A stretch of 11,637 bases of DNA. It comes from Bifidobacteriaceae bacterium NR021 (GTDB taxonomy: Bacteria; Actinomycetota; Actinomycetes; Actinomycetales; Bifidobacteriaceae). The notes under the pieces were generated by a model. It ran no database searches. It was not told the origin of the DNA and saw only the letters and a list, made by a program, of their open reading frames with translations. Location of the stretch: positions 5,052-16,688 of the forward strand of contig NQOP01000001.1 in the NCBI GenBank assembly GCA_003585845.1, read 5' to 3'. The translations under genes were made by a program, and so were the position numbers. Positions 1 to 8,390 of the stretch are shown piece by piece (positions within the stretch are counted from its first letter, which is position 1; every line of letters starts with the position of its first letter).

Positions 1-1407
1 TATCATTCATACGAAGGTTATGGCGGTTTAGACTTAAAAGTAGTTAACAAACCAAAGGGCGCTCGTATTGAGTGGAGATATGTGCGCGCTGACGAAGGTC
101 CTGACGCGTATGGAACCACTCTTTTTGCTGAGAGATTGCAGCTTCCAGCTGAGCCTGCAATGAACAAAATGAAAGTGTATGCTCACGCAACTGAAGGCGA
201 AACGCAAGTTGGCAAAGATACTGCGTCTGCAACCATAGTTGTTGAAGATCACGGTGCTGACGGGCATCCTGTAGTAAAAGCAATTGTTCCTTATAAGCGT
301 TTCAAACCAGGAGATACTTTACACGCGAAAACAGTATTGCTTAACCCTCATGTTGCAACAGATGCTACTACTGGTGAGCCAATCGATGACCCTACGAATC
401 CTGTAACTTCCATTGTTAAAGATTATGTTTGGTTGATGAAAAAGGAAGGGGAAAGCGAATTTAAGCGCATTCCTGGTGCTGTGAGCAGCAAGTTGGATCT
501 AAAACTTGATGCATCAATGCAAGGTGCAACGATTCGTCCTTCCTTAGTTTTAAAGAACGGTGAGCTTTACCGCAATAAAATGTTTGATGAGTTTTGCGAT
601 TATGTTATTGAGATGAAGGGTGTTCCTCACTCTCATAACAATGATGGCGATGATGATCAAAGCGGTTCTGATTCTGAAGATGATGAGAATCCTCATGGTA
701 AAAAGCGCCATGAGAAGCGTCATAAGAAGAGCAATAATAAGCGTCATAATAAGCGCAAAAATAAGACTAATCATTTTGCTGGTGGCAGGAGCTTTTTGAA
801 AGGCGTATTCGGAGGCACTGAAAATTCTGGGATATTCGGATCTAATTTTAACGGTGGATTCCAATTCGAATCTAATTTCTTTAAGAAATCCAACAAAAAG
901 TTAAAGCGCACAAAGAATAATCACAATAAGATTAACCGCACTAATCGTAAGAATAATTCTAAGAATAATGTGCAAAATGGTTCTGGTTCTGGTTCTGGCT
1001 CTGGCTCTAGCTCTTTTACAAGAACAGAAAATTCAAGCGGAAAATCGTCGCATAATTCATCGCGACGAACTTCTGGCGGAACTAATACTAAAAACAAGAG
1101 CTCTAAGAAAAGTGGACAGACTATTCGTAATTTCGTGAGAACAGATAATAATTCCGGCAATAATTTCAAAAATAGTTCTGTCAATAATTCTGATTTTGTT
1201 AAGAATAATGAACGCCATGCTTTGCAAGATGCAAGGCAATACGACGAAGAATCTGATGAATCTTATGAAGATGATTCAGATGATACGAAAGGTAATAGTT
1301 CCTCGAATAAATGGGTTGCGGTTGCAGCTTCAAGCGCGAGCGTTGGCTTATGTACAATAACTGGCGCATGCGGAGCATTGGTACGTTCTAAATTGAAATT
1401 GTTGTAA
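1..1407 (+). CDS. Large membrane-anchored surface protein, C-terminal part (5' end outside window)
   Basis: The frame is open from base 1, so this is the last 468 residues of a longer protein; the GTG at 82 is only an internal codon. Residues about 1-84 and 91-207 look like beta-rich, Ig-like domains (alternating hydrophobic residues, core Trp25 and Trp144), an inference from pattern only. After that comes a long low-complexity tail: an acidic stretch (about 214-230), a strongly basic His/Lys/Arg/Asn stretch (about 233-257), a second Lys/Asn-rich stretch (about 289-325), a Gly-Ser run (327-338) and an acidic patch near 413-427. The C-terminus has a weakly hydrophobic segment (438-461) and a short basic end (RSKLKLL), which fits a membrane anchor; there is no LPXTG motif. 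It lies 34 bases before the next surface-protein gene and probably belongs to the same operon. The GHxD/HxH repeat motifs of its neighbours are not visible here; they may lie upstream. The nearest family I can suggest is the ABC transporter-associated repeat proteins (TIGR03773), from context. Confidence 0.8.
   Translation, partial: YHSYEGYGGLDLKVVNKPKGARIEWRYVRADEGPDAYGTTLFAERLQLPAEPAMNKMKVYAHATEGETQVGKDTASATIVVEDHGADGHPVVKAIVPYKRFKPGDTLHAKTVLLNPHVATDATTGEPIDDPTNPVTSIVKDYVWLMKKEGESEFKRIPGAVSSKLDLKLDASMQGATIRPSLVLKNGELYRNKMFDEFCDYVIEMKGVPHSHNNDGDDDQSGSDSEDDENPHGKKRHEKRHKKSNNKRHNKRKNKTNHFAGGRSFLKGVFGGTENSGIFGSNFNGGFQFESNFFKKSNKKLKRTKNNHNKINRTNRKNNSKNNVQNGSGSGSGSGSSSFTRTENSSGKSSHNSSRRTSGGTNTKNKSSKKSGQTIRNFVRTDNNSGNNFKNSSVNNSDFVKNNERHALQDARQYDEESDESYEDDSDDTKGNSSSNKWVAVAASSASVGLCTITGACGALVRSKLKLL
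979..1014 (+). repeat. In-frame hexanucleotide Gly-Ser repeat
   Basis: Six consecutive 6-base units: three GGTTCT, two GGCTCT and one AGCTCT. They encode alternating Gly-Ser ending in Ser-Ser within the disordered tail of the first surface protein. The unit length is a multiple of three, so gain or loss of units would change linker length without shifting the frame. Confidence 0.85.
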
Positions 1408-1441: not shown

Positions 1442-2653
1442 ATGAATTACAAACAAAATGAAACATTGCGAGTAAAACGAAAGAATGCATATTCTACTGC
1501 GTTACTTGCGCTCATATTTTCTTTAGTAACTTTGGTTGCATCTTTATGTGTACCAAATCCAATGCATGAGACTGCTTATGCTAATGAAGGCAGTCAGCCA
1601 GTTATGATTCAAGCAGGTCATGCTGATTTTGGGCCAACGCTAATCGACGGCAAATGGAAATTGAAGATTCGTGATGATACTGGTGACGAACCAGTGTGGC
1701 GAGACCCAGAAAATGTGGTATTTAAATTAGGTGGCAATTCAATAATTCCTATGCCTGATGACGCTGCTTACAGTTTTATTGGCGAAAAGCCTGGAACGAA
1801 GCTGTATGTTATTCCACAAACTCAGAATCCCGACGTGCCGTGGCTTGGTTGGAATACGCAGGAAGGTGGCGTGCTTAACGAGCTCGATCGCGGCGCGAAC
1901 CTTTCGCTTGAAGGAGTAAGTGGTCCAGGCAAATTGCATGTTTACTTAGAAAATGGCAATAACAATCCACAGCAGCTTTGGGACAGTACTAAAGGTTATC
2001 CACAAAACAGCTGGATTGAAACTAACGCTCATACTCACGTTAATTGGGTGTTTTCTAAGCCTGGAATTTATCATGTGAAGCTTACTTTTTCTGGAAAGCT
2101 TAAAAACGGACGCGCTGTAAGCGATACGCGTGTTCTTAATTTTGCAGTTGGAGATAATACTGATCCTAATGCTGCTTTAGGTGCGGGTGCTGCTGCTGGA
2201 TCAAGTGGCAACGAGGGCGACGAAGGCGACGAAGAGGATCAAGATGAAGAAGATAATGATGAAGCTGGAAAAGATGAAGCTGGTCATCATAACAAATTTC
2301 TCCACAACAAGCATAAGCATTCTCACAAAGTATCTGAGAAAAGTGACGATACAGCTTTAGTTCTTCAAATCGTAGGTATTTTTGTGGCTATTATTGCTGT
2401 AATTATTGTGATTTTTGTGCTAATAGCTGTAGTTAAAAGTAAGAAAGCACGAAATCTTGCGCTTGCTAAGCAAGTTTCTGCACAAGCTAATCAACAGTAT
2501 GCAAATAATGCAAATTCTGTGAATAATGCAAATGGCGACAATACCTTGTCAAATCTAGTGCGTGATCAAGAAACAACAGTAATGTCACCAATTAATAATT
2601 CTCAATATTCTCAATCGGACAATATGCAATCTGATGGTACTCAGTGGAAATAA
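1442..2653 (+). CDS. Membrane-anchored surface protein with one actinobacterial anchored-repeat domain (TIGR03769 / choice-of-anchor M type)
   Basis: 403 residues. The N-terminus is basic followed by a hydrophobic stretch (17-38), with a likely signal peptidase site after TAYA (residue 47). Residues about 55-237 form one copy of the repeat: it opens with AGHADFGP (58-65), has IPQTQNPDVPWLGW in the middle (124-137) and ends with AHTHVNWVFSKPGIY (196-210) and FAVG (234-237). An acidic linker (258-274) and a His-rich stretch (281-295, with His at 281, 282, 288, 291, 293, 295) lead into a strong transmembrane segment (304-331). A basic stop-transfer KSKKAR and an Asn/Gln-rich tail of about 70 residues follow, predicted to be cytoplasmic. 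Only a weak Shine-Dalgarno (AGAAAG, 1428-1433) precedes the ATG, but no better start fits the signal peptide. The repeat assignment is confident; the role as a metal-collecting surface partner of the downstream transporter is inferred from context. Confidence 0.88.
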   Translation: MNYKQNETLRVKRKNAYSTALLALIFSLVTLVASLCVPNPMHETAYANEGSQPVMIQAGHADFGPTLIDGKWKLKIRDDTGDEPVWRDPENVVFKLGGNSIIPMPDDAAYSFIGEKPGTKLYVIPQTQNPDVPWLGWNTQEGGVLNELDRGANLSLEGVSGPGKLHVYLENGNNNPQQLWDSTKGYPQNSWIETNAHTHVNWVFSKPGIYHVKLTFSGKLKNGRAVSDTRVLNFAVGDNTDPNAALGAGAAAGSSGNEGDEGDEEDQDEEDNDEAGKDEAGHHNKFLHNKHKHSHKVSEKSDDTALVLQIVGIFVAIIAVIIVIFVLIAVVKSKKARNLALAKQVSAQANQQYANNANSVNNANGDNTLSNLVRDQETTVMSPINNSQYSQSDNMQSDGTQWK

Positions 2654-2666
2654 TGGTGTAACGAAA

Positions 2667-4907
2667 ATGGTTCGTAATAGTATAAAGAAATTATCTCGCG
2701 CTTTGTTGGTGGGCGTGTGCTTGTGCGGCATGATGATGGGAACGCCTGCAGCTTTTGCTGACAATGGCAGTGACGCAACTGTTGTAAGCGGAAAGAAATC
2801 TTCTAAAGATTTTGCCGAAATAAAGAAAGCCAATTTTAAAGCGTGTGCAGCTGCTAAATTAGGTAAAACTGATTCACAACCTGCGGCTGATAGTAAAGCT
2901 GAAATGTGCCACGCGTATAAAGGGCATGCTGACGTTTTTGCAACTTTCTTTGATGCTACAAGCAAGCGCATGGTATTAGGCACCTTGGGTGATGCGTTTG
3001 AAAGTGAAGATCATGATGGCACTCGTTACGATACGAATCGACTTATTTTTGAAGTCGGTTCTAAAAACATCATGCAGCTTTCCAAAGATGATGATAATCA
3101 AGCAATAAAAGAAATCTACGCAACAACTCGCGAAGGTGTAGTCTGGTTCTTTGATCAGTCGGGAGCTGGGAATACTGGTGCATTATGGCCCGGTTTAGAT
3201 ACTAGACCGTTATATGAGGGAGCTGGTTCTACTTCAGTTAATCCAACGGTCAAACTGTCATTAACTGGTATCGAAGCACCTCACAATGGCGAAGTTTTTA
3301 TGTACACTCGCAGCGGTGACGATTATGAGAAAATGCTTGGCTCTGCTGACGGATGGCCGAAAGATGTTGATGTCACTGAGACTGGTGGCAAGCATTCGCA
3401 CATGTATTGGTCTTTTAACCGTCCTGGTGTGTACAAGTTAAAAATGAAGGCTACTGCTACCGTTGGTGGCGAGGAGCAAAGTGCTGAGCAAGTCTATACA
3501 TTCCACGTCACTAATCATGATGTAACAGCTGGGGATTTTGCTGATTATGATGGTGCATCTTTTGACGGTGATGAAGATGGTGAAGACGAAGAAGATTCAG
3601 ATGATAATGACGATGAAGATTCTCAAAGTGAAGGTAATGGCATTAATTTGCAACAAAGTAACGGATCTTTCTTCATTAACGGCAACAACAACACTGTGTA
3701 TGTGACTCCATGGCCTGGAGCAAAAATGCAGCAACAAGGGCTTTTTGGAGGCAATAGCGGTCTTTTTGGAGGCAATAACGGACTCTTCGGAAACAATAAC
3801 GGACTCTTTGGAAGCAATAACAGTGGTCTTTTTAATGGTGGACATAACGTTAAAGGCGGAAAGCAAAATTCTCAAAATCAGCAATCTGCTGCAACAAAGT
3901 TCAAAGACATCAAGGGCGACAAACTTGTTATAGACCACGGTCACGTTGATATTGCTGTATATACTGGCGATTCAAATAAAGTTGATATGGCTGTGCAAGA
4001 AGATGTGACAGGAAGCCACGTCTTTAGAGACACAGACACAGTTGTATTCGCAGTTGGTGATGCTGGTAAAACTAAGGGCGTTTATCGCATACCGCAAACA
4101 CAAATTGATGGTGTGCCATGGATGGGTTGGAATAATCAGTCTATGAATCCGCATAAGCCAACTCAATTGAGCCTAACAGGAGTTGAAGGTCCTGGAAACG
4201 TGCGCGTTTGGATGTTCGGAGGCTTGGGCGGCGGAGATAAAGAGATTTTCTCCACTCAAGGAGCAACAGATTATACGATACCTGCAAATACGCATGCTCA
4301 TGCGAATTGGGATTTTGACAAACCGGGATATTACACATTGCAATTCCAAGCTTCCGACGGAAATTCTACAGTAACTCGCAATATTCACGTTGCTGTTGGT
4401 GTAGATCCACAAGAAACACCAATGGGGTATGCTGGCGGCGGCGAAGGTGGCGGAAGAAAGGATCCGCAAGTCAAAAAAGGTGGGACTCCTACACCTAAGA
4501 ATCCACCAAAACCTACTAATTTGCCTCGTTCTGGCGGAAATAATGGCGGTCATGGAAACGGTGCCGTTGGTGGCGGAAATCCTTTTGTTGGTGGTCGTGG
4601 TTTTGGATCAAATAATTCACACTCTGGAAAACAATTGCCAAGAAAAGCTAAAAAGCATAAAGGTCTTGTTTCAAAAATTAGTAACAAGAGGCTTGCTAAA
4701 AGTTTGTACCGACAGAAGTTGAACGATAATGACGATGTTGTGAAGTCTGAAGCAAAAGGTGTAACAGGATTATTTAAGCGAAATCCTTTACTTGCTTATT
4801 CGCTTCTTGCTGGTGGAATTATTGCTGTGCTTGGCGTTTTGGGTGCAGGAATTTGGTATCTCTACAATCGCGGACTTATTAGCTTCAACTGGTTGTTGCG
4901 CTATTAA
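2667..4907 (+). CDS. Membrane-anchored surface protein with two anchored-repeat domains (TIGR03773-like)
   Basis: 746 residues from ATG 2667, 13 bases after the previous stop. I prefer this start because it gives a compact signal peptide (basic RNSIKKLSR, hydrophobic core, AFA cleavage after residue 31). An ATG at 2634 would add 11 residues and overlap the previous gene. Repeat 1 (about 84-283) is divergent but keeps GHAD (86-89), KHSHMYW (242-248) and NRPGVY (251-256); Cys60 and Cys81 lie just before it. An acidic linker (299-318) and an Asn-rich region with five GLFG-type units (358-391) separate it from repeat 2 (about 420-579), which is canonical: GHVD (425-428), IPQTQIDGVPWMGW (475-488), THAHANW (542-548), DKPGYY (551-556). 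A Gly/Pro/Lys-rich spacer with LPRSG (619-623), a basic stretch (655-684) and a transmembrane segment (710-732) follow, with a short tail. Two copies beside the transporter genes match TIGR03773 as I recall it. The role in metal capture is inference. Confidence 0.87.
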   Translation: MVRNSIKKLSRALLVGVCLCGMMMGTPAAFADNGSDATVVSGKKSSKDFAEIKKANFKACAAAKLGKTDSQPAADSKAEMCHAYKGHADVFATFFDATSKRMVLGTLGDAFESEDHDGTRYDTNRLIFEVGSKNIMQLSKDDDNQAIKEIYATTREGVVWFFDQSGAGNTGALWPGLDTRPLYEGAGSTSVNPTVKLSLTGIEAPHNGEVFMYTRSGDDYEKMLGSADGWPKDVDVTETGGKHSHMYWSFNRPGVYKLKMKATATVGGEEQSAEQVYTFHVTNHDVTAGDFADYDGASFDGDEDGEDEEDSDDNDDEDSQSEGNGINLQQSNGSFFINGNNNTVYVTPWPGAKMQQQGLFGGNSGLFGGNNGLFGNNNGLFGSNNSGLFNGGHNVKGGKQNSQNQQSAATKFKDIKGDKLVIDHGHVDIAVYTGDSNKVDMAVQEDVTGSHVFRDTDTVVFAVGDAGKTKGVYRIPQTQIDGVPWMGWNNQSMNPHKPTQLSLTGVEGPGNVRVWMFGGLGGGDKEIFSTQGATDYTIPANTHAHANWDFDKPGYYTLQFQASDGNSTVTRNIHVAVGVDPQETPMGYAGGGEGGGRKDPQVKKGGTPTPKNPPKPTNLPRSGGNNGGHGNGAVGGGNPFVGGRGFGSNNSHSGKQLPRKAKKHKGLVSKISNKRLAKSLYRQKLNDNDDVVKSEAKGVTGLFKRNPLLAYSLLAGGIIAVLGVLGAGIWYLYNRGLISFNWLLRY
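3738..3842 (+). repeat. GLFG-type 21-base tandem repeat in surface protein linker
   Basis: Five consecutive units begin with Gly-Leu-Phe. Three are 21 bases (3738-3758, 3759-3779, 3780-3800), the fourth has an extra Ser codon (3801-3824) and the fifth is partial (3825-3842). They encode GLFGGNS, GLFGGNN, GLFGNNN, GLFGSNNS and GLFNGG. Unit lengths are multiples of three, so copy number could vary in frame. The repeat lies between the two folded repeat domains and likely acts as a flexible or self-associating linker (inference). Confidence 0.85.
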
Positions 4908-4951: not shown

Positions 4952-6718
4952 GTGATTTATAAGCCCAAAAAAGTAAAGCAAACTTTGTTTTCTTCGCTTG
5001 CTGTAATTGCAGTCGTCGCGCTTATTTTGCCGCTTTCTGCTTGTGGTAGTGCTAACGGGAATCGTGCAGGACATCGCGATGGTCGAATTAATGTAGTTAC
5101 GACTACAGGCGTTTTGCGCGATATGGTTGCGAATGTAGCAGGTGATGCTGCAAATGTGAGCTCAATCGTGCCTGATAATGCAGATCCGCACTCTTACGAG
5201 CCGCGATTGCGTTCAATCAGAGACGTTGTGTATGCGGATGTGGCTTTTAGTAATTACATGATGCTTGAGGAGCATGGTGTTATTACTGCTTTAGATGCGA
5301 ATTTGCGAAAAGGCGTGCCGAATGTGCAACTTGCTGAAGAAAGCGTGAAACATGCGGCGGATATTATTCCAATGGTCGAAGATGTGTCGTTAGACACTAT
5401 TTGGCTTGGTCTTGCTACAGAACGCCAAACTTCGCAGCCGGTTGAGGAAGCTAAAGACGCTAAAGAACAACAAAAATCTCAAAAGAAATCTGATAAGTTG
5501 CAGTCTTTGCAGTCTTCGCAATCTTCTCAAGTTTCTCAGTCTTCGCAGTCAAACGCGCCTTCAACTGTAACGAAAGAAGGACGCGCTACTGTAATAAAGC
5601 CAAAAGCATACAACATGAAGCGTTCGGACAGGATCCGCTTAACTGCGACTAAAGTAACCGGTCCTGGTTCGCTTTTCGCTTACCTTACTGGCACTTTTGG
5701 AAGCGTAGAAACTTACGTTAATTCAGCAAACGGAATTAACGATGAAGATCATGTAGATTTGCCTGCGGACGCGCACACGCATTTAAGTTGGGCTTTTAGT
5801 AAGCCAGGAGAATACACTCTCGACTTTCATGCAGATATGCTCAATGCTCAAAACGAAAGAGTTGCAAGTTTAGGAAACGCAACTATGCGTTTTGCTGTAG
5901 GCATTAACGCGCAGAAATTAGCGAAAAAGCGTGGAGCTAGTGTAGTTTTGAATCAAGGCCATGCAGATTTGGCTTACGATTTAGCTAAACGCGGATTTTT
6001 GTACAGAGTTGACACTTTGCAAGAAAAGCGGTCGGTTGCGCCAAAGCGCGTGTATTATGAGCCGCGAGATGTAGTAGTAGAAGTGCCGACTAATGCTTTA
6101 AAAGAAATTCCAGCTGAACAAGGCTATAGATTCCTTGGATTTGCACGGCAGAAAATCTATCAACTTCCACAAGCTGTTCTTGGAAAACATGTTCACGGAG
6201 ATATTGATCCGCATTTATGGCAGTCAGTGAAAAACGGAATTGCTTATGTGCGCACAATAGCTGACCGCTTGTGTGAAGTCGATCCTAAAAATGCTCGCAA
6301 ATATCGCGCAAATGCGGACCGGTATATTAACAAGCTGCTCGATGTAGACGCTTATATGCGTAAAAAAGTTGCGTCAATTCCAAAAGAACGCCGCAACTTG
6401 GTTACAACGCATGACGCTTTTGCATACTTAGGTAAAGCTTATGGCGTAAATATTGCGGGATTTGTAACAATCAACCCTTCAAGCGAGCCGAGTGTGCAAG
6501 ATAGGCGCAGACTTTCGCAAATTTTGCGCGACTTGGAAATCCCTGCAGTGTTTTTAGAGCCGAATTTAATTTCTCGCTCGTCTGTGCTTAAAGAGCTTGC
6601 GTCTGAAGCACATGTGAAAGTTTGCCCAATTTATGGTGACGCCTTCGACGCAAATGTGCGAACTTACGCGGATATGATGCGAGCTAACGCGGATTCTTTA
6701 GCGAAATGTTTGAAGTGA
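4952..6718 (+). CDS. Anchored repeat-type ABC transporter, metal-binding lipoprotein (TroA/ZnuA family with inserted repeat)
   Basis: 588 residues. A lipoprotein signal ends in the lipobox LSAC (Cys31), so it is tethered to the outer face of the membrane. The metal-binding fold is split: the N-lobe is about 45-140 and contains DPHSYEP with His80; the C-lobe runs from about 413 and contains HGDIDPHLW (His421), TTHDAFAY (His487) and YGDAF (Asp563). The His-His-His-Asp set resembles ZnuA/TroA more than the His-His-Glu-Asp of manganese binders such as PsaA, so zinc is favoured but not proven. Between the lobes lie a Gln/Ser-rich linker (about 171-200) and a repeat domain whose C-terminal half (AHTHLSWAFSKPGEY, 274-288) precedes its N-terminal half (GHADL 336-340, then YRFLGF...IYQLPQ 392-407). 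The usual family length is near 300 residues, so the insert roughly doubles it. It ends 20 bases before the ATPase gene. Architecture matches TIGR03772 as I recall it. Confidence 0.9.
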   Translation: MIYKPKKVKQTLFSSLAVIAVVALILPLSACGSANGNRAGHRDGRINVVTTTGVLRDMVANVAGDAANVSSIVPDNADPHSYEPRLRSIRDVVYADVAFSNYMMLEEHGVITALDANLRKGVPNVQLAEESVKHAADIIPMVEDVSLDTIWLGLATERQTSQPVEEAKDAKEQQKSQKKSDKLQSLQSSQSSQVSQSSQSNAPSTVTKEGRATVIKPKAYNMKRSDRIRLTATKVTGPGSLFAYLTGTFGSVETYVNSANGINDEDHVDLPADAHTHLSWAFSKPGEYTLDFHADMLNAQNERVASLGNATMRFAVGINAQKLAKKRGASVVLNQGHADLAYDLAKRGFLYRVDTLQEKRSVAPKRVYYEPRDVVVEVPTNALKEIPAEQGYRFLGFARQKIYQLPQAVLGKHVHGDIDPHLWQSVKNGIAYVRTIADRLCEVDPKNARKYRANADRYINKLLDVDAYMRKKVASIPKERRNLVTTHDAFAYLGKAYGVNIAGFVTINPSSEPSVQDRRRLSQILRDLEIPAVFLEPNLISRSSVLKELASEAHVKVCPIYGDAFDANVRTYADMMRANADSLAKCLK

Positions 6719-6725
6719 AAGTGTT

Positions 6726-6730
6726 AAAGG
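6726..6730 (+). promoter_or_regulatory. Ribosome binding site deciding the ATPase start
   Basis: AAAGG lies eight bases before ATG 6739. The alternative in-frame ATG at 6706 lies inside the lipoprotein gene, has no such sequence before it and would add 11 residues with no family counterpart. Confidence 0.6.
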
Positions 6731-6738
6731 TAGTAAAT

Positions 6739-7527
6739 ATGGAAGAAAATGCAGTAATTTGCGCACAAAATTTGAATATTTCGTACGGTAGTCGCGCTGT
6801 TGTAAAAGACGTTTCTTTTACCATTAATAGTGGCGAATTTGTGGGATTGCTTGGTGCAAACGGTGCCGGTAAAACGACGCTATTTCGTGCAATTATGGGT
6901 TTGATTCCACATACTGGAAAACTCGAAGTGCGTGCTCCTCATATGGAAGGTGCAAAACTTAATTCTCGCGTATCTTACGTTGGGTATGTGCCACAACGTC
7001 ACGATATTGCGTGGGATTTCCCACTTTCTGTTTTAGATGTAGTGATGATGGGTAGGATTCGTCATATTGGTTACGTTCGCCGCGCTAAAAAAGAAGATTA
7101 CGAGATTGCATTAAACTCGCTTGAGCGCACAGGAATGGCTGATTTTCAAGATCGCACGATTGGAGAACTTTCTGGAGGTCAGCGGCAACGCGTGCTTGTT
7201 GCGAGAGCATTGGCTGGAGAGCCGCGTTTGCTTTTGCTAGACGAACCGTTTACTGGGCTCGATATGCCTACTCAGGAGTTGCTTACCGATTTGTTCTTGA
7301 AATTGTCTGCTTCTGGTGAAGCAATTCTCATGAGTTCGCACGATATTATTGGCTCAATTAACTCATGCTCGAGAATAATGCTATTTGATGGCACTATTGT
7401 GGGCGACGACGATCCGCAAAATTTGCAAACAGAACAGTGGGTACGAACCTTCCACGTAGCTCCGCAAAATCCGCTTATTAAAGCAGTTGAGCGCGTAATT
7501 GGTAAGGAAAGTGTGGTGGAAAAGTAA
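6739..7527 (+). CDS. Anchored repeat-type ABC transporter, ATP-binding subunit (Zn/Mn family)
   Basis: 262 residues, the usual size for a ZnuC/MntB-type ATPase. It hydrolyses ATP on the cytoplasmic face to power import through the permease encoded next. All nucleotide-binding motifs are intact: Walker A GANGAGKT (39-46), Q-loop VPQ (Gln86), signature LSGGQ (144-148), Walker B LLLLDEP (164-170), D-loop GLD (173-175) and the switch His201 in SSHD. The sequence RHDIAWDFPLSVLDVVMMGR (87-106) is typical of the metal-transport branch of the superfamily. The start is set by AAAGG at 6726-6730. The stop overlaps the permease start by one base (TAATG), so the two are probably translationally coupled. 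The NCBIfam counterpart is TIGR03771 as I recall it. Family assignment is firm; the exact metal is inferred from the binding protein. Confidence 0.94.
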   Translation: MEENAVICAQNLNISYGSRAVVKDVSFTINSGEFVGLLGANGAGKTTLFRAIMGLIPHTGKLEVRAPHMEGAKLNSRVSYVGYVPQRHDIAWDFPLSVLDVVMMGRIRHIGYVRRAKKEDYEIALNSLERTGMADFQDRTIGELSGGQRQRVLVARALAGEPRLLLLDEPFTGLDMPTQELLTDLFLKLSASGEAILMSSHDIIGSINSCSRIMLFDGTIVGDDDPQNLQTEQWVRTFHVAPQNPLIKAVERVIGKESVVEK

Positions 7528-8390
7528 TGTTATCTCCAATAGAATTTATACAAGATTTAACAAATCCTGATCTTTGGTTTTTGCTAAAAGCACTTATTGT
7601 AGCGTGCCTTTCTAGCGTAATTTGTGGTGTAGTTGGATGCTATGTAGTGCTTAGAGGAATGGCGTTTATTGGAGATGCTGTAGCTCATTCAGTGTTCCCA
7701 GGACTTGCAATAGCCTTCGTATTGCAAGGAAATCTGCTATTTGGAGGAGCACTCGCAGGAGTTGCAACCGCGCTAATCGTATCTATTTTTAGCCAAAACC
7801 GTAGGCTTCGCGAAGACTCATTTATTGGCGTATTTTTCGTATCTGCTTTCGCTCTTGGAATTGTGATTATTTCTAAAGCATCTGGCTACGCTGGATCCTT
7901 GGAATCCTTCTTGTTTGGCTCGATTACAGGTATTCCTGATTCAGATATCGCTGTTGTTGCTGTTACTGGTTTGATTATTTTGGCTATATTATGCATGTTT
8001 CACAAAGAGCTTGTTTGTGTATCGATGGATCGAGAAACTTCGCGCGCAATGGGATTGCCTGTTGCATGGCTAGATGGAATGTTGTACGTGTTAGTGGCTA
8101 TCGCTGTAGTTGTTTCCGTGCAAATTATTGGAAACGTGCTTGTACTTGCTCTGCTTGTGACTCCTGCTGCAACTGCGCGACTGCTTACTGATCGGCTATC
8201 TAGGATGATGATTTTAGCTCCTGTTATTGGTTGCGTTTCTTCGATTGTTGGAATGTATATTTCGTGGAGCTTTGATACAGCAACAGGCGGAACAATTGTG
8301 CTCGTAGCAACCGCTCTATTTGTGCTCGCTTGGGCGTGCTCTCCTAAACATGGGTTGATTGCAAAAGTAGGTCGTAGCGTAGGTTTATAG
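7527..8390 (+). CDS. Anchored repeat-type ABC transporter, permease subunit (ABC-3 family)
   Basis: 287 residues, very hydrophobic, with about eight membrane segments, as expected for the ABC-3 family (ZnuB, MntC, TroC). The family motif around RGMAFIGDAVAHSVFPG (43-59) is present, as is the segment MDRETSRAMGLPV (167-179), which probably contacts the ATPase, and the late helix IIGNVLVLALLVTPAATARL (200-219). It forms the membrane channel through which the lipoprotein-bound metal enters the cell; as a homodimer it would pair with two ATPase copies (family knowledge). ATG 7527 overlaps the ATPase stop by one base, and GGTGGA (7515-7520) serves as ribosome binding site inside the ATPase gene. 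The plsC-like gene begins 20 bases after its stop with no terminator between. The NCBIfam counterpart is TIGR03770 as I recall it. Confidence 0.94.
   Translation: MLSPIEFIQDLTNPDLWFLLKALIVACLSSVICGVVGCYVVLRGMAFIGDAVAHSVFPGLAIAFVLQGNLLFGGALAGVATALIVSIFSQNRRLREDSFIGVFFVSAFALGIVIISKASGYAGSLESFLFGSITGIPDSDIAVVAVTGLIILAILCMFHKELVCVSMDRETSRAMGLPVAWLDGMLYVLVAIAVVVSVQIIGNVLVLALLVTPAATARLLTDRLSRMMILAPVIGCVSSIVGMYISWSFDTATGGTIVLVATALFVLAWACSPKHGLIAKVGRSVGL

Follow-up and report, generated by a model that had tools for sequence, protein, structure and literature searches.

The substrate-binding lipoprotein (SBP) encoded in the window, that is, the whole stretch of 11,637 nucleotides analysed here (contig C4:5052-16688 of a 1.8 Mb genome), almost certainly carries a circularly permuted copy of the domain that its neighbouring surface proteins bear in native order. 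Along the window, the genes were arranged as the end of a surface protein, a one-repeat surface protein, a two-repeat surface protein, the lipoprotein, an ATPase and a permease, and close homologues bore the name Gardnerella. The last three products belonged to the families of the anchored-repeat ABC transporter (TIGR03772, TIGR03771 and TIGR03770), and the repeat of the surface proteins to NF038134, choice-of-anchor M (hereafter, M domain). All the features are collected in Table 1. Moreover, the first surface protein contained a long Asn/Ser/Lys-rich low-complexity region followed by a C-terminal hydrophobic stretch (window 643-1300).

Table 1. Features of the window and of the lipoprotein with its inserted M domain (positions in the window; residues of the 588-aa lipoprotein).
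Feature	Position	Strand	Basis
Third surface protein, C-terminal part	1..1407	+	native-order M domain upstream of the window (contig C4:3591-4181)
One-repeat surface protein, gene	1442-2653	+	
One-repeat protein, native-order M domain	1607..2149	+	NF038134 positions 2-184
Two-repeat surface protein, gene	2634-4907	+	
Two-repeat protein, native-order M domain 1	2913..3509	+	NF038134 positions 2-184
Two-repeat protein, native-order M domain 2	3918..4400	+	surface-only HMM match; NF038134 positions 1-169 at 3927-4370
SBP, 588 aa, with inserted permuted domain	4952..6718	+	TIGR03772 624.1 bits (whole protein; curated cut-off 350.45); PF01297 224.4 bits (two stretches; cut-off 29)
SBP first part, residues 32-146, with metal-ligand candidate H80 (DPHSY)	5045..5389	+	phmmer to MntA 5hx7, residues 37-107
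Second native half of the M domain, placed first, residues 150-317 (WLG, GPG, HTH..W.F, FAVG)	5399..5902	+	surface-only HMM columns 36-186, E 7e-22; strands 151-157 ... 303-316
Gln/Ser-rich low-complexity stretch within the insert, residues ~157-222	5420..5617	+	mostly low pLDDT
HxH of the M-domain site (H275, H277)	5774..5782	+	invariant in 67 SBP rows
Linker, residues 318-329, native C-terminus (FAVG) to native N-terminus	5903..5938	+	gap between HMM pieces
First native half of the M domain, placed last, residues 330-408 (GHAD ... FLG ... IYQLPQ)	5939..6175	+	surface-only HMM columns 2-76, E 3e-9; strands 331-333 ... 401-405
GHAD of the M-domain site (H337, D339)	5957..5968	+	both invariant in 67 SBP rows
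Remaining SBP, residues 412-588: KHVHG, DPHLW (H421), TTHDA (H487), YGDAF (D563)	6185..6715	+	PF01297 positions 97-263 at residues 408-586; residues of the four motifs invariant
ATP-binding subunit	6706..7527	+	TIGR03771 287 bits, cut-off 268.8
Permease subunit	7527..8390	+	TIGR03770 430.3 bits, cut-off 296.8

The lipoprotein scored well above the cut-offs of TIGR03772 and of PF01297 (ZnuA, cluster A-I SBPs). The cleft ligands of such proteins (H, H, H/E and D) appeared as H80, H421, H487 and D563, all of them invariant in 67 aligned SBP rows, and their role as ligands in the lipoprotein is assumed by analogy. Furthermore, the whole protein reached 85.7 bits with NF038134 (cut-off 55) in two stretches, the second half of the domain preceding the first. 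Judged by its sequence, the insert is a permuted relative of the choice-of-anchor M domain and no standard member of it. Beyond its own family, the best NCBIfam match of the lipoprotein was AztC (NF040870), with 194.8 bits below a cut-off of 350, and AdcA (NF033605) gave 83.8 bits against a cut-off of 700, both assignments being rejected. The predicted model of the whole protein resembled manganese and zinc SBPs in Foldseek, with matches to MntA, TroA and AztC structures (5i4k, TMt 0.84; AztC 5w57, 0.83).

Every motif quoted in an earlier note on this DNA was found at the place given there. In the one-repeat surface protein, these were GHAD (59-62), AYSFIGEKPGTKLYVIPQ (109-126), PWLGWNT (133-139), HTHVNW (197-202), FSKPGIY (204-210) and FAVG (234-237). 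Residues 145-410 of the lipoprotein (window 5384-6181) began with IWLGLAT (150-156), followed by TGPGSLFAYL (236-245), AHTHLSW (274-280), FSKPGEY (282-288) and FAVG (314-317), and only then by NQGHADL (334-340), EPRDVVVEV (370-378), YRFLGF (392-397) and IYQLPQ (402-407). An HMM built from full-length surface repeats alone (412 domains in 292 frames; the surface-only HMM) matched the lipoprotein of the window twice, with model columns 36-186 (E 7e-22) and then 2-76 (E 3e-9), its columns before ~78 being aligned to the low-complexity stretch. With NF038134, the two matches covered positions 44-184 and then 1-73, and those in the SBPs of two other genomes 42-184 then 1-75, and 77-184 then 1-74. 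The Gln/Ser-rich stretch, lying between the WLG strand and the strand that follows, was long only in the Gardnerella-like rows of the alignment and missing from the others, save for a short insert in the Alloscardovia row; much of the variation in length of the Gardnerella-like SBPs (roughly 570-620 aa) is probably due to it.

The swapped pair of matches appeared in 82 out of 82 SBP frames searched with the surface-only HMM. These comprised 79 loci found by peptide patterns, two loci from a phylum sample and the window itself, and they were partly non-independent (80 distinct rows; 39 left of 80 after thinning). Column 76 was the end of the second piece in every one of the 82 frames; the first piece started at columns 76-80 in 68 of them, earlier in eight (down to 36) and at 97-98 in six, so that the two pieces complement each other. 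No swapped pair was found among 147 adjacent match pairs from 295 surface frames. Likewise, all 120 database surface proteins had one native-order domain each, and 116 out of 120 database SBPs had the strict swapped pair. The other four were one pair in which the second piece reached column 108, two fragments restricted to the first piece and a 907-aa frame (P0077). In the latter, an SBP bearing the permuted pair came after native M-domain matches, an arrangement that may be a gene fusion or an artefact. Control lipoprotein frames, 82 of them reversed and 820 shuffled, gave no match to the surface-only HMM at E<=0.01, and neither did 15 related SBPs lacking the domain.

The same order was seen in genome samples. 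TIGR03772 was over its cut-off in 3 of the 396 genomes of the phylum sample, whose SBPs had the M domain swapped. In an order-wide sample, with 52 genomes having an M-domain match (47 of them over the TIGR03772 cut-off), the order was swapped in 37 out of 37 domain-bearing SBP genes examined: 33 as strict pairs, three with truncated matches and one missed by the motif rule (L165, second piece E 8e-4). The SBPs examined there came from 30 loci plus eight regions chosen by place, seven of which held a domain-bearing SBP and one (L164) an SBP without it. One of the peptide patterns, LDT[IV]WLG, spans the insert junction and the 79-locus set therefore favours the swapped architecture; this pattern was unused in the phylum and order samples, where loci were picked by TIGR03772, a family that contains the swapped insert. 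Moreover, the SBP sets may overlap, some frames being equal in length and matches. A motif rule excluded two SBP frames (L003 and L073), both of them swapped, from the cut scan, from the tree and from the count of HxH and GHxD motifs. The circular permutation claimed in the earlier note is borne out (swapped order in 82/82 and 37/37), and the comparison across Actinobacteria that it proposed found the swap in all domain-bearing SBPs examined. Apart from this, one SBP gene (L170, G518:C2:748343-749781) was apparently split over two reading frames (TIGR03772 1-376 and 375-486).

To locate the cut, the surface alignment was rotated by k columns and each rotation was scored on 80 of the 82 inserts. 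The mean score was 68.4 bits in the native arrangement (k=0) and had its maximum at k=76 (110.0 bits), the top being flat, with at least 107.9 bits from column 74 to 90; surface repeats showed the opposite trend (181.0 bits native vs. 109.6 permuted). Column 76 falls between VLPQTQ and NPGLLWPGW, and, relative to the surface copies, that of the SBP is shifted circularly by about 77 positions. The linker between the HMM pieces was 6-14 aa long in 79 SBP frames. Both results agree with the earlier note, which had opened the domain between the IPQ and WLG strands and joined its native ends by a short linker; its proposal that both ends fall at one hairpin fits the surface-family couplings across the cut (columns 73-84, 74-85 and 73-81). 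The opposite outcome that it had considered, a pair of distinct domains jointly failing to match a single repeat, is at odds with the hhalign comparisons, in which the halves rejoined in native order fitted the surface profile over 179 columns (E 2.3e-41) vs. 105 for the insert as it stands. The note had further suggested that the domain could sit between the two lobes of the SBP. Instead, the domain sits in the loop just before the metal ligand H421 (DPHLW), which in this SBP class is part of the first lobe, on the cleft rim, and so not between the lobes.

At that loop, relatives without the domain carried a short turn or a His-rich loop, the latter in 9 of 15 SBPs as counted by eye (the 15 readable among 27 loci, L005-L031, being those whose frame met a motif rule). 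One of them, a domain-free SBP with a His-rich loop (L014), kept HVHGEFDPHVW. As read from the range of the alignment, H421 would correspond to H138 of AztC. In that protein, the loop 117-133, directly before H138, is essential for zinc uptake from AztD, and so is each of its three His for taking the zinc of AztD (PMC7463823).

The surface repeat was modelled with high confidence (window 1586-2176; pLDDT 96.3, pTM 0.91). Its elements were E6-8, E11-20, E23-30, E37-39, E44-48, E53-55, H60-65 and E72-76 before the cut, and E85-90, H94-99, E100-112, E117-121, E129-133, E140-145, E149-151, E153-156, E160-172 and E177-188 after it. The lipoprotein model was moderate (pLDDT 75.7, pTM 0.66) and had in the first piece of the insert E151-157, H164-177 (low confidence), E227-236, E241-246, E252-257, E267-271, E275-277, E279-282, E286-297 and E303-316, and in the second piece, after a linker helix (320-326), E331-333, E337-343, E348-354, E366-369, E374-378, E383-385, H390-395 and E401-405. 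In these predictions, the insert and the surface repeat have equal elements in the same cyclic order with a shifted start. In the surface family, the couplings that join the pre-cut strand to the post-cut strand were accompanied by others to strand 116-118 (ladder 72-117/73-116). A total of 76 out of the 184 top couplings crossed the cut, fewer than the half expected under an even spread, and columns 9, 11, 83, 146 and 148 were among the most strongly coupled. Within the SBPs, mutual information gave no cross-cut covariation in the top 50 pairs (AUC 0.48, p 0.67), with AUC of 0.47 and 0.49 in the top 100 and 200, and mean-field couplings gave a weak signal (AUC 0.63, p 0.01 in the top 25; 0.57 and 0.56 in the top 50 and 100). 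The insert would form one compact fold within the SBP.

Regarding the candidate metal site, the invariant residues in 77 surface rows were the H and D of GHxD, the G of W.G, the first G of GPG and HxHxxWxF...G.Y. In the 67 SBP rows, they were W151, G153, GPG, H275, H277, W280, F282 and G286, and then G336, H337 and D339; the invariant string of the SBPs is that of the surface proteins, rotated. Moreover, HxHxxWxF followed by GHxD was found in 80 out of 80 SBP frames tested and in two more outside the motif rule. The GHxD His was missing in 41 of 394 full surface domains, which also had lost the first His of HxH in 41 cases, the second in 39 and the Asp in 16. The W and G of W.G were lost with it (40/41 and 29/41), and the GPG glycines hardly so (8/41 and 1/41). 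It should be reminded that the surface rows are related, so that the Fisher values (1e-53 and 6e-49) are no probabilities; the surface domains lacking at least one His showed 34 different motif pairs, of which many were variants within a single subgroup and a few contained alignment gaps. This joint loss of His points to one site with three His and perhaps the Asp, and HxH and GHxD probably make up a single three-His, one-Asp zinc site, by which the insert would carry zinc. On the other hand, a subgroup of surface repeats that had lost all three His (e.g. AGAD with RTGVVW) may perhaps consist of non-binding spacer repeats. In one SBP of the order sample (L165:1372-3150), the ligand motifs of the lobes were altered (DPEKY, DPALW and TEFDS) and the permuted domain kept HHHVSW and GHAD, a possible case of a receptor retaining the M-domain site alone.

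Further evidence on zinc comes from Corynebacterium diphtheriae, whose surface proteins responded to zinc in thermal shift, the growth effects of ZnuE and ZnuG requiring the His and their AlphaFold models bringing HxD and HxH together (PMC12445094). However, the His-to-Ala protein of ZnuE was still shifted with zinc and the result for the ZnuG mutant was unclear, so that zinc binding at the HxD/HxH site is unproven, as its authors state, and deletion of the SBP had a modest growth effect only (PMC12445094).

Taken together, the system is likely to be a zinc importer whose receptor bears a rotated surface-type domain at its metal cleft and may be fed by the surface M-domain proteins, zinc being the most likely metal of lipoprotein and importer by homology to the Zur-repressed znu cluster. 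One complete M domain would have been inserted before the second metal ligand, where other zinc SBPs have their His-rich or docking loop. In the inserted domain, the chain is opened between native strands 72-76 and 85-90 and a linker of 6-14 residues connects the native ends, which would let the domain exit and re-enter the SBP at one hairpin. The wall- and membrane-anchored M-domain proteins would collect zinc, and the M domain of the SBP, its orientation fixed at the mouth of the cleft, would dock with them or accept their zinc. The metal would then pass via H413 and H415 to H80, H421, H487 and D563, and be imported by the permease and the ATPase. For the hand-over from the surface proteins to the SBP, we put the chances at about even, and the transfer would run in that direction. 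A tentative reading, held somewhat below even chances, is that the permutation itself is the adaptation, a zinc domain of wall proteins having been rotated and grafted where the docking loop would be, turning the site towards the cleft and creating a two-site relay in one SBP that arose once in Actinomycetota. If so, one domain family would provide both the wall donor and the first acceptor of the receptor.

Same-family domains can pair together, and the insert may accordingly be a docking or spacing module that recognizes the surface proteins or the permease and carries no zinc. The zinc response kept by the His-to-Ala mutant of ZnuE in C. diphtheriae (PMC12445094) also fits this reading, which we regard as rather unlikely since the three His and the Asp were invariant in the 67 SBP rows, both motifs occurred in every frame tested, L165 retained them despite its altered lobe motifs and the surface domains losing one His mostly lost the rest. 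A zinc-carrying insert is preferred. Whether the two pieces rebuild an M domain at all is a different matter. The lack of cross-cut covariation in the SBPs by mutual information, and its weakness by mean-field couplings, would suit two half domains folding separately side by side. Nevertheless, the boundaries of the pieces are complementary, the linker is short, both pieces contribute conserved residues to the presumed site and the halves of the surface family share couplings, including the ladder 72-117/73-116, which makes separate folding very improbable. Still less credible, to the point of being negligible, is that the reversed order reflects a short HxH/HxD pair of separate origin, with no rearranged homologous domain. 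Such a pair would be compatible with the published report, in which only motif order and spacing are described (PMC12445094), and is contradicted by homology spanning both halves, the first-half piece giving E 3.4e-19 over 73 columns in hhalign and the other piece 6.6e-26 over 105 columns.

As for the direction of the change, a tree of the halves in native order placed 39 SBP domains on one side of a single branch and 129 surface domains on the other (SH-aLRT 100; quick search, unrooted tree), the simplest reading of which is that the swapped form arose once. Since one change separates the groups either way in an unrooted tree, the permuted form could also be the older one, from which the surface repeats derived. 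We consider this improbable, given that most TIGR03772 relatives in the phylum sample matched the lobes only, below the cut-off, with 3 of the 396 genomes above it. A weak point against it is that 5 of the 53 genomes with an M-domain match in the order sample were without TIGR03772 over its cut-off, as three of these five were incomplete or contaminated and two had an M match under the NF038134 cut-off.

The SBP family TIGR03772 is already known, as is the fact that it contains the repeat, and the description of the family presumably remarks on an insert. ZnuA (DIP0438) of C. diphtheriae, annotated as the same family, lies in the same kind of gene cluster (PMC6711530). Its HxD/HxH motif was described as being 'in the reverse orientation', with 45 residues between (PMC12445094). 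The permutation accounts for this published oddity and gives it a structural statement; the stem 'permut' is absent from the main text of that report and, in the part of it consulted, no cut, extent, universality or insertion place is given, whereas the permutation is identified here. No mention of a circular permutation of the M domain of the SBP was found in the literature, mostly at the level of open-access texts and titles. The surface repeats of NF038134/TIGR03769 (ZnuE, ZnuF, ZnuG and CmrA) share the domain and its marking residues with the SBP copy, but they are in native order, single or in tandem, while the SBP copy is rotated and inserted.

Among other transporters, MglB-2 (Tp0684) of Treponema pallidum is reportedly an SBP of divergent topology with a rearranged chain order. 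There, the SBP fold itself is rearranged, whereas here the SBP fold is ordinary and the inserted domain is permuted. In AdcA, the extra domain is C-terminal. Another likeness is that of AztC and AztD, as the loop of AztC at the equivalent place helps to receive zinc from a separate protein (PMC7463823). However, the AztC loop is short and flexible and AztD is a beta-propeller, while in the present SBP the loop is a domain of the family of its presumed donor. Similarly, surface zinc proteins have been proposed to feed a zinc SBP in streptococci (AdcA/AdcAII with PhtD), although the Pht proteins are unlike the M-domain proteins in sequence (PMC12445094). The lipoprotein is a clear example of a circularly permuted domain at the site of its insertion into a different fold, seen in all domain-bearing homologues examined from a large bacterial group, and the permuted insert suggests how surface zinc-binding proteins may pass metal to a transporter.

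The system was patchy, with an M-domain match in 53 of the 297 genomes of the order sample; among the listed genomes, it was found in 3 out of 14 of the genus of the window and in none of nine others of the family. The palindrome TAATGAGAATCATTA, which we take to resemble a Fur-family box, was located 105 bases upstream of the first gene of the operon (contig C4:3310-3324, with the start at 3429), that is, upstream of the window. It was present in nine out of nine Gardnerella-group loci of the 79-locus set (0.01 expected by chance in 5.2 kb); in the four of these loci with listed frames, it lay close to where the first surface frame starts. The assembly (89% complete) had one FUR-family gene, and the homologous cluster of C. 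diphtheriae is repressed by zinc through Zur (PMC6711530). Finally, in a medium that simulates genital secretions, the ten most induced genes of G. vaginalis included the transporter and two M-domain genes, with increases of 62- to 121-fold (PMC11979175), which lends medical interest to the working of the transporter.
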